From Pelotomaculum sp. (GTDB lineage Bacteria > Bacillota > Desulfotomaculia > Desulfotomaculales > Pelotomaculaceae), in contig JAHDOA010000023.1 of the NCBI GenBank assembly GCA_018435055.1, positions 1 through 35,005 of the forward strand: a DNA stretch of 35,005 bases, in the 5' to 3' direction. Position numbers and translations under genes: made by a program. The notes below the pieces were generated by a model, which made no database searches, was not told the DNA's origin, and was given only the letters and a program-made list of their open reading frames with translations. This document shows positions 18,529 through 25,040 of this stretch, one piece after another (positions within the stretch are counted from its first letter, which is position 1; every line of letters starts with the position of its first letter).

Positions 18529-18805
18529 CAGAGTTCTTCAATCTTTATAAAGCGATGACCGGGAAAAGTAAACGCGCGTGGTATGCGACAGGGAGGGAAG
18601 GCCCTGACTGAAAGCCTTCCTCGTAAACTGGCGTTGAAAAAACACCCGGGAGCGGTCCCCGAAAGTTGTAGGTACAAGTAGGCCGGCCCGGCAGCCTCCG
18701 TTACAGGCATTGAGGGAAAAACACAAAATTTCCGAAAAAGGGTGGCACCGCGGGTAGAAATATCCGTCCCTGGCTGTGCTTGATGCATGGCCCGGGTTTT
18801 TGTTT
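18529..18805 (+). promoter_or_regulatory. T-box leader of hisS-aspS, probable Asn (AAC) specifier
   Basis: The leader has the hallmark T-box core AGGGTGGCACCGCG at 18739-18752 and a terminator stem (18768-18796, 12 bp with one mismatch) followed by a T-run. Stem I is recognisable: AAGTA (loop E) then AACGC, an upper arm, and GCGTT closing it, followed by the specifier loop GAAAAAACAC at 18636-18645. In this loop AAC (18641-18643) is followed by A, the usual purine; CAC (18643-18645) is followed by C. The base pairing with the tRNA discriminator is C18746, which fits G73 (Asn, Asp) and not the C73 of bacterial tRNA-His. Asn is therefore the best reading, His the alternative. Confidence 0.93.
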
Positions 18806-21946: not shown

Positions 21947-22017
21947 CGAGGTTGCAGAAGTCAGCGGCGCGTACTTGTAAAAATCGTTTTGTTGTGATAA
22001 CATAAATAAAGAAATAA

Positions 22018-22165
22018 ACGCCCTGCTGTGTGCGTGGTCTACCCTGAAGTTTTGTTCCAACACCTTAGAAAAGGGAGCGCGGTCTCTGGATGTGGCTTGC
22101 ACGCCTCTTAATTGAGGAAACATAAATCATCCAGGCGGGCACCCACCTGTGAGAGCAGGTTCAAA
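22018..22165 (+). ncRNA. ssrS: 6S RNA (SsrS), RNA polymerase regulator
   Basis: 6S RNA binds the sigma-A holoenzyme by mimicking an open promoter. CCTGCT (22022-22027) pairs with AGCAGG (22154-22159) as closing stem; an apical arm closes with TGGATG/CATCCA and an inner CCTC/GAGG; the large internal region between them holds TTGTTCCAACACCTT, as expected for the central bubble. No ORF is present. The location between aspS and rarA matches the place of bsrA in Bacillus, which is strong support. The 3' boundary is uncertain; the primary transcript may run to the terminator near 22262. Confidence 0.82.
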
Positions 22166-22215
22166 CTTTTGGTGGGCACGGCATTAGTGGGGTTTTAATA
22201 AGGCCTAATCGGCAG

Positions 22216-22859: not shown

Positions 22860-24176
22860 ATGATGAATTTGTTTGAACAAGCTATGGAGAAAAAAATAGT
22901 AAAGACTGCGCCGCTGGCTTTGCGGATGAGGCCGCAAACCCTGGATGAATTTGAAGAACAGGCCGGAATCGTAGGCAGAGGAACGCTGTTGAGAAAATCG
23001 ATAGAAGCGGACAACCTGCGGTCAGCCATATTTTTCGGTCCGCCCGGCACCGGCAAAACCACACTGGCCAGAGTAATAGCCGGCATGACCAAATCCCGCT
23101 TTGAAACGATAAATGCCGTGATGGCGGGCGTCGCTGATATCAGGCGGGTGGTGGAGGAAGCCAGGGGCAGCCGTTCTCTTTATGACGAAAAAACAATCCT
23201 TTTCATAGATGAGATCCACCGCTTTAATAAGTCTCAGCAAGACGCCCTGCTGCCTTTTGTGGAGAACGGCCTGATTACTCTGATCGGCTCCACCACGGAA
23301 AACCCCATGTTTTCTGTAAACCGCCCGCTGCTTTCCCGCTCGCAGCTATACCGCTTTGAACTCCTTTCCCCGGAGGCCCTGACAAAAATACTTTTAAGGG
23401 CGCTGGGAGACGTGGAAAGAGGTTTGGGATGCTACCAGGCTGAAGTTTCCCCGGAAGCGCTGGCGCATATTGCCGGGGTGGCCAACGGGGACGCCCGGGC
23501 TGCTTTAAACGCCCTCGAGTTGGCTGTGCTTACCACCCCGCCGGACGCAGCAGGGAAAAGGCTTATATCGCTGGCTGTCGCGGAAGAGGCTGTCCAGAAG
23601 CGAGTCCTCAAGTATGACCGGGCGGATGAACACTATGACGTAATCTCCGCATTTATCAAAAGTATGCGGGGTTCAGACCCGCACGCCACCCTTTACTGGC
23701 TGGCCAGGATGCTGTATGCCGGGGAAGACCCCGCGTTTATCAGCCGGCGGATTATGATCCACGCGGCTGAGGATGTCGGCCTGGCGGACCCGCAGGCGCT
23801 TGTTGTCGCTGTCGCCGCCGCCCAGGCAGTAGAAAGGATCGGCATGCCCGAAGCGCGGATCATACTGGCTGAAGCCGCTCTCTATATTGCCGCCGCCCCG
23901 AAAAGCAATGCGGCGATTAGAGGCATCGACGCGGCTATGTCAGCTGTTGAAAAAGAAAGAGTTGAGCCGGCGCCGCCTCATTTAAGGGGAACCGGCTATA
24001 AAGGGGCGGCAGAACTGGGCGCCGGCCGGGGCTACAAATACCCGCACGACTACCCGGATGCATTTGTCAAACAGGCCTACCTGCCGGAAAACATGGCCGG
24101 GAAAAAATTTTATAATCCCTCCGGCAGCGGCTATGAAGCTGAAGTAAAAAAAAGACTTGATAAAAAGATTTTTTAA
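22860..24176 (+). CDS. rarA: Replication-associated recombination protein RarA (MgsA) AAA ATPase
   Basis: RarA is an AAA+ ATPase acting at stalled replication forks, related to clamp loaders. The 438-residue protein has Walker [10 protein letters not shown] (residues 60-68), Walker [11 protein letters not shown] (Asp117-Glu118), sensor 1 IGSTTENP, the arginine-finger region [12 protein letters not shown], and the conserved C-terminal domain ending [25 protein letters not shown] precedes two ATG codons (22860, 22863), either of which can be the start. aspS-6S-rarA synteny is as in Bacillus (yrvN). Confidence 0.97.
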
Positions 24177-24218
24177 TTTGTTGCATTAAATTTATTTAAC
24201 CGGGCAAAATACCGTCAC

Positions 24219-24645
24219 AAGGGTTCGTAATGGCCGAGCCCAGACTGTTACAGGGTCAAAAGGCTCTGTAATAGTCGGCCAAAGATTAATATCAGGTCGT
24301 AATGGCTTGATATTAGTCGGCGGGCAGACTGGTAGGTGTTCCGGCAGGTTCTGCAGCAGTCTTAAGAGATTGTTGCAGGGTCGTAAGGGATATCTACTGG
24401 TCGAGCTAAGATTATCATGGGTGTCGGATGCTGCTTTTTTTAGCCTGAGGTCTGTAGCAGTCGAAAGATTGCTGCAGGCTTCCTAGATATCCATGATAGT
24501 CGAGCAAAGGTCATTATGGGTTCCGTAATGGTCTATGGCAGTCGAAAGATTGTCATAGGCTATGTAGGGATGCATAATGGCTGTAGCGTAGGTCATTACG
24601 GGCTCTTAACATAGAAACCTTCCTCTTTGGAGGAAGGTTTCTTGT
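24219..24645 (+). ncRNA. Candidate structured RNA: array of five helical arms with GAAA tetraloops
   Basis: No ORF lies here, but the plus strand folds into a regular array. Arms A (24243-24253 with 24266-24276) and B (24284-24294 with 24308-24318) are simple 11-bp hairpins. Arms C (24327-24335/24394-24402), D (24410-24420/24491-24501) and E (24510-24518/24573-24581) each carry an inner 11-bp hairpin: 24351-24361/24368-24378, 24452-24462/24467-24477, 24533-24543/24548-24558. The inner loops of D and E are GAAA closed by C-G. Linkers between arms resemble TCGAGCAAAG, and CGTAATGG recurs in loops. CGTAATGGCC (24226-24235) can pair with 24591-24600 to enclose the array. A hairpin at 24614-24641 ends it. 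I recognise no known RNA family; strand is inferred from G-U pairs and GAAA loops. Confidence 0.6.
24614..24641 (+). terminator. 12-bp hairpin ending the structured region
   Basis: GAAACCTTCCTC pairs perfectly with GAGGAAGGTTTC around TTTG. Only TTGTAGTT follows, so U-tract support is weak. Confidence 0.5.
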
Positions 24646-24647
24646 AG

Positions 24648-24698
24648 TTCGCCGGCAAAAAAACGGTATTAAGCAGGAATATTTAGTATGCCGGCGAA
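24648..24698. repeat. Inverted repeat TTCGCCGGC / GCCGGCGAA
   Basis: A perfect 9-bp inverted repeat (24648-24656 and 24690-24698) encloses 33 AT-rich bases between the structured array and the next gene. Role unknown. Confidence 0.45.
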
Positions 24699-24767
24699 AT
24701 ATTAACCAAATGCTATCAGGATTATATTATATTTCTGTGCCTTGAGCCTGGAAAGGAATGGTTAAAA

Positions 24768-25040
24768 ATGGAAGAAACAAAGTTTTGCCCGGTGGCAAAA
24801 GCCGATTGCAGAAAAGAACAATGCGCCTGGTGGGATATTTATATTAATGAGTGCGCCGTGCTCTCGATGATGCTCGCTTTATGGGCGGATGTGGATGAGG
24901 ATGACGACGACGATGATGAAGAAGATGAAAAAGAAAGAGAAAAAAAAGATGCTGGTGATGTGGAGGATAATGCCGCAGGTGAAGAGTTTGCAAACGGCGA
25001 TATAAAAGAGTTTATGGTCAAGGTAAAAAGGTTGGACTGA
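24768..25040 (+). CDS. Cys-motif and acidic-tract small protein, unknown
   Basis: The 90-residue protein has an N-terminal CPVAKADCRKEQCAWW motif (Cys at 7, 14 and 19, plus Cys29 in INECAV), which may bind metal and resembles small uncharacterised Firmicute proteins with FCP...C...CAWW. Residues 42-66 are almost all Asp, Glu and Lys. The rest is unremarkable. AAAGGA lies upstream of ATG 24768. I do not recognise a function. Confidence 0.7.
   Translation: MEETKFCPVAKADCRKEQCAWWDIYINECAVLSMMLALWADVDEDDDDDDEEDEKEREKKDAGDVEDNAAGEEFANGDIKEFMVKVKRLD

Follow-up and report, generated by a model that had tools for sequence, protein, structure and literature searches.

A six-arm star RNA with a forespore-type promoter, probably a new class of structured RNA in endospore-forming Bacillota

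Relation to described RNA classes

Large structured RNAs and small RNAs of the forespore are both known as general types of bacterial RNA. CsfG, the reverse strand of the ylbH element (PMC3574147), is a free-standing structured RNA under forespore sigma-F/sigma-G control that is kept in spore formers (PMC3574147, PMC9147052). Bvs196 (S357) of Bacillus is a forespore RNA under sigma-F/G with a terminator and a stable fold, and its deletion affects spore resistance (PMC9147052). The large RNAs GOLLD, ROOL and OLE form homo-oligomers (PMC12286853).

The window analysed here, 35,005 nucleotides from Pelotomaculum sp., carries in the gap 3' of rarA a gene for an RNA of about 390 nt, termed star RNA in the following. 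A search of positions 24170-24780 against Rfam 15 gave no match at the gathering or at a relaxed threshold (no meaningful E-value), in agreement with the initial annotation, which had taken the RNA for an undescribed class, and 14 distant homologous loci gave no match on the star RNA itself. Weak Rfam matches to MicC and PyrR were rejected as chance. The six-arm architecture is absent from Rfam 15 and from the openly accessible journal literature that was searched. Star RNA is a class new to Rfam 15 and to this literature, as is the combination of a large structured RNA with a forespore type of promoter.

The ylbH element is represented in Rfam; neither the window nor the 14 distant loci match its (CsfG) model. 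Star RNA resembles CsfG as a free-standing structured RNA kept in spore formers, and the sigma-F/sigma-G promoter that marks forespore RNAs of the CsfG/Bvs196 kind is found in front of it as a sequence consensus only. In contrast to the six-arm star of about 390 nt, CsfG measures about 136 nt in an Hfq study and has CU-rich loops. Bvs196/S357 has 294 nt and -82 kcal/mol and is reported in Bacillus only. OLE, GOLLD and ROOL are large, elaborate, conserved and free-standing, as is star RNA; their architecture is unlike that of star RNA, and their Rfam models gave no match to it.

Locus, fold and selection on the RNA

The rarA gene, with MgsA_C/RarA domains, occupies positions 22860-24176 and is followed by a gap (24177-24767) that, as claimed at the outset, holds no ORF of at least 80 aa. 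Within this gap the star RNA, comprising a closing stem and five arms, extends on the plus strand from 24219 to 24607, as delimited by fold z score, homologues, covariation and the minimum free energy (MFE) map; the probable transcript start is predicted at about 24216-24219. The initial annotation had drawn the feature to 24645. Its start stands, and the end does not, since 24613-24642 is a distinct terminator-like plus-strand hairpin of 13 bp (AGAAACCTTCCTC-TTTG-GAGGAAGGTTTCT), lying outside the RNA proper. The T run of this hairpin is short and weak in the window copy; a hairpin of the same kind also stands 3' of many homologues, often followed by a longer U run. Further 3' lie an inverted repeat of 13 nt with a spacer of 31 nt (24645-24701) and, at 24768-25040 on the plus strand, an ORF for an acidic protein of 90 aa that has no Pfam or NCBIfam match. 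The window also contains two ordinary plus-strand RNAs, a T-box leader 5' of hisS (18546-18774) and a 6S RNA flanked by aspS and a thioredoxin gene (22017-22197).

The plus strand of the gap folds at -247 kcal/mol, compared with -136 +/- 5 kcal/mol in dinucleotide shuffles (z = -21), and the fold of the minus strand is far weaker (z = -5.5 only). In the MFE map the RNA is closed by stem P1, in which 24219-24235 pairs with 24591-24607 over 17 bp; the proposed pairing of CGTAATGGCC at 24226-24235 with 24591-24600 is part of this stem. The five helical arms that had been described are all present and, in addition to the MFE map, supported by covarying pairs: arm A (24243-24276, 15 bp), arm B (24284-24318, 15 bp), arm C (24327-24402, 16 bp), arm D (24410-24501, 16 bp) and arm E (24509-24582, 10+5 bp). 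The second hairpins of the latter three, also described before, are found at 24347-24382, 24447-24482 and 24528-24563, each with 16 bp; those of D and E are GAAA hairpins and bear the AGTC-GAAA-GATT tips noted earlier. From A to E the hairpin loops of the window copy read AAAA, GTAAT, TAAG, GAAA and GAAA. The array architecture was thus seen correctly; helix lengths of 9-11 bp were too short, arms and inner hairpins having 15-16 bp.

The reading as a five-arm array has to be extended in one respect. The 3' strand of P1 resembles the 5' strand of arm E, and the 5' strands of arms A to E together with the 3' strand of P1 share a mean identity of 57%, against 27% (maximum 40%) in shuffles. By this resemblance P1 is itself a sixth, homologous arm, and the RNA a pseudo-six-fold star round one junction. 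Where P1 is kept in the predicted fold, exactly five further arms meet at the junction in 85 of 89 homologues.

Homologues with 62-96% identity were found in most of 60 relatives. Together with the window copy they provide 57 long copies, all of which fold (-183 to -299 kcal/mol). RNAalifold places 146 pairs on these copies; in 96, both partners are substituted in two or more sequences. With 36 more distant copies from Bacillota the set rises to 93 full-length homologues, in which canonical pairs fill 97.3% of the pair cells and G-U is found in 3318 cells against 95 with A-C (35:1). Since a DNA palindrome gives no such excess, this points to selection on an RNA read from the plus strand, as the G-U pairs of the window copy had initially suggested. 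The check for covariation in homologues that the initial annotation had asked for was carried out on 86 sequences with a home-made imitation of R-scape, in which substitutions are reshuffled on a FastTree tree and scored by an APC-corrected G statistic. It yields 26 significantly covarying pairs, 26/26 within the predicted fold, spread over all five arms, inner hairpins included. No covarying pair falls in P1 among these 86 sequences; this stem hardly varies. The element is an RNA rather than a palindrome of DNA.

Distribution and genomic context

The distribution was followed with two partial covariance models rather than a full-length one, R1 covering the 5' strand of P1 with arms A and B, and R2 covering arm E with the 3' strand of P1. 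Among 113 genomes from the class, R2 finds a match in 87. Across a sample of 299 genomes of Bacillota in the wide sense, R2 matches 127 and R1 109, and 131 genomes are RNA-positive overall; searches centred on a Blautia and on a Paenibacillus genome draw on the same genomes, which shows how wide the sampled phylum is and also means that they are not independent evidence. No star RNA was found in one Blautia genome and two Paenibacillus genomes. The spread reaches well beyond Peptococcaceae, and carriers include Pelotomaculum, Desulfoscipio geothermicus, Desulfotruncus, Desulfocucumis, Desulfallas, Sporotomaculum, Desulforudis, Desulfovirgula and Carboxydocella thermautotrophica. Ten named carriers have one to three matches each, weak matches counted. 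Such conservation of an RNA of about 390 nt, over some 60 of the Bacillota families sampled, is seldom met among undescribed RNAs.

The neighbours of the gene vary by lineage over about 90 loci and include rarA, ileS/lspA, spoIVA/recJ, aroB, radA/pnpS and ABC transporters. It is a free-standing gene that occupies unconnected intergenic sites and has a promoter of its own (see below) and, as a rule, a terminator-like hairpin. An obligate protein partner encoded next to it was considered and rejected, since the neighbours differ among the loci. Part of its distribution reflects inheritance at the same site, and part duplication or relocation.

Several other genomes hold 2-5 copies, some of them 0.5-2 kb apart, and the ends of the element are inverted repeats, as would be expected of a mobile or repetitive DNA element of the MITE/REP type whose terminal inverted repeats form the closing stem. 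Such an origin is nevertheless hardly tenable. The 35:1 preponderance of G-U over A-C is at odds with a strand-symmetric DNA palindrome, and every arm has covarying pairs. Moreover, the promoter and the terminator-like hairpin are conserved outside the repeat, the gene context is common within lineages, and phage and plasmid records contain no copy. Three matches in IMG/VR, and matches of an 18-base pattern in non-Bacillota-like genomes, fail the covariance model and were rejected as chance.

Some individual loci deserve mention. In G023, two copies at locus L061 (3991-4452 and 5978-6436) lie 2 kb apart behind identical upstream sequence, which indicates a recent duplication of the segment; the genome has further copies. 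A short variant of about 290 nt, all arms of which resemble single hairpins, was found at L291 (4001-4289, contig C7 of G256), and a longer copy is present elsewhere in that genome. At four loci between ileS and lspA (L092, L093, L096 and L098) plain blastn sees the 3' part only; these are probably more divergent copies. In two distant Bacillota genomes a c-di-GMP-I riboswitch (L211 545-645 and L224 520-610) lies about 1 kb or less from star RNA.

Forespore-type promoter, sporulation and possible role

The consensus of sigma-F promoters has been given as GTATA / GGNAANAMTR and that of sigma-G promoters as GNATA / CAWAMTA (PMC3416734, Table 4). In C. difficile, sigma-F promoters are marked by a G upstream of the -10 element and sigma-G promoters by an A downstream of it, and spoVT has both (PMC3789822). 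Upstream of the star RNA copies, a block xNAT, mostly followed by A, is separated by about 15 nt from a block GGNCATAMTA, whose end lies about 7-9 nt upstream of the first paired base in most copies. In the window the putative -35 element of this forespore (GNATA-like) type, within the xNAT(A) block conserved in 93 homologues, is GCATT (24183-24187, plus strand) and departs from GNATA in this copy. The putative -10 element is GGGCAAAATA (24202-24211, plus strand), which fits GGNNANAMTR and, from 24205, CAWAMTA (consensus from PMC3416734, Table 4).

Over the upstream regions of the 93 homologues, GGNNANAMTA occurs in 45 (1.4 expected from shuffles), CAWAMTA in 39 (6.4 in shuffles) and the exact pair GNATA-n-CAWAMTA in 9 (0.11 in shuffles); the exact sigma-F pair GTATA..GGNAANAMTR occurs in none of the 93. 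A profile made from the star RNA promoters is enriched upstream of genes for small acid-soluble spore proteins (SASP) relative to random windows (p 0.002); upstream of spoIIR, a classical sigma-F gene that served as positive control, enrichment is not clear (p 0.06). By its sequence the promoter fits the forespore sigma-F/sigma-G type and not that of sigma-A.

With genes for alpha/beta SASP (PF00269) as spore marker in the same 299 genomes, 256 genomes are SASP carriers, including every one of the 131 that are RNA-positive, and star RNA is absent from the 43 genomes that lack SASP genes (Fisher p 1.4e-12, not fully corrected for phylogeny). A test by family gives p about 4e-4, with 63 RNA-positive among about 121 families listed, of which at least 10 have neither SASP genes nor star RNA. 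The sole SASP-lacking genomes among the 113 sampled from the class (G080 and G085) also lack star RNA. On the other side, 125 of the 256 SASP-bearing genomes, about half, have no match, from which it follows that sporulation does not generally require star RNA. Its restriction to SASP genomes in this sample, along with the forespore-type promoter, makes it probable that star RNA is a hitherto unrecognised spore RNA.

An alternative is that RNAs of this fold are transcribed in vegetative cells from a sigma-A promoter, without any particular tie to spores, and that phylogeny accounts for the link to SASP genomes. The -10 core CATAAT resembles TATAAT, some copies have TTGNAT about 18 bp upstream, and half of the spore formers are without star RNA. 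We regard this as improbable, because sigma-A pairs are not above shuffles in the 93 copies (2 against 1.6, 20 against 13, and 50 against 46), because the near-invariant promoter bases (A-T of the -35 element; A, T, A and GG of the -10 element) fit sigma-F/G, and because star RNA is absent from all 43 SASP-lacking genomes, which represent at least 10 families. Our preferred reading, which we hold to be probable, is that star RNA constitutes a new class among the structured RNAs of endospore formers in the Bacillota, free-standing and presumably trans-acting, and that it is made in the forespore. We infer that it may then be kept in the spore. If the forespore link holds, it would be a spore RNA that exceeds the known forespore sRNAs both in size and in breadth of conservation, and would allow the part of structured RNA particles in spore maturation, dormancy or germination to be tested directly.

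How such an RNA might act is suggested by its repeated form. Following transcription in the forespore from the sigma-F/sigma-G-type promoter, and retention in the spore, each of the six similar arms would present the same binding site to a protein. This site would consist of a wobble-rich helix segment, for example GGGUC/GGCUC or GGUUCC/GGGAUC, at a distance of about one turn from the junction, and would also include the A-rich bases of the arms and the GNRA tips. The arms would thereby hold several copies of a protein, or of star RNA itself, in spore maturation or dormancy. Since the arm is repeated and the wobble-rich segments, A-rich bases and GNRA tips are conserved, repeated identical contacts and hence a scaffold or a protein-binding decoy are favoured; we put this forward as the most likely mechanism, as a proposal of a tentative kind. 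A more specific version, in which an RNA class devoted to the spore throughout Bacillota forms a six-fold pseudo-symmetric star, is made only in the forespore and builds a stable particle, with a protein or by self-assembly, inside the core of the dormant spore, is rather doubtful. RNAs of the CsrB/RsmZ type titrate a protein through repeated hairpin modules, and as a working idea the repeated hairpin modules of star RNA could bind many copies of one protein in a similar way. However, the GGA loop motif of those RNAs is not repeated in the hairpin loops of star RNA.

Two other roles in the spore were weighed. Bvs196 and CsfG are forespore RNAs under sigma-F/G (PMC9147052), and star RNA might resemble them as an antisense regulator whose loops act on spore mRNAs; words in its loops and linkers, for instance GUCGAGCAAAGG, are indeed strongly conserved. 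However, it is short junction and internal loops, not long seed regions, that contain these words, and antisense action is unlikely because the median homologue has no more than about 22% of its nucleotides unpaired. The very stable, highly paired fold and the several copies in some genomes would also suit an abundant, nuclease-resistant RNA that serves as nucleotide reserve or core filler without a specific partner. This we consider very unlikely, given that the sequence of the junction and internal loops is conserved beyond the need of mere bulk.

Scanning for related promoters elsewhere supplies further observations. In four genomes, GNATA-n-CATACTA yields 12 sites, one lying in front of a SASP-like gene and another in front of a dacF-like gene, both named by reading translations; the former coincides with a PF00269 location (G015, contig C1, 1838884-1839063). 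A strict scan of 110 genomes with TGNATA..GGNCATAATA yields 13 sites, of which two are star RNA itself, one precedes a GerXA-like gene (match below the model cut-off) and the others are mostly uninformative. In G065 (L187), star RNA starts about 60 nt 3' of a SASP gene on the same strand, and the same order is found in G067.
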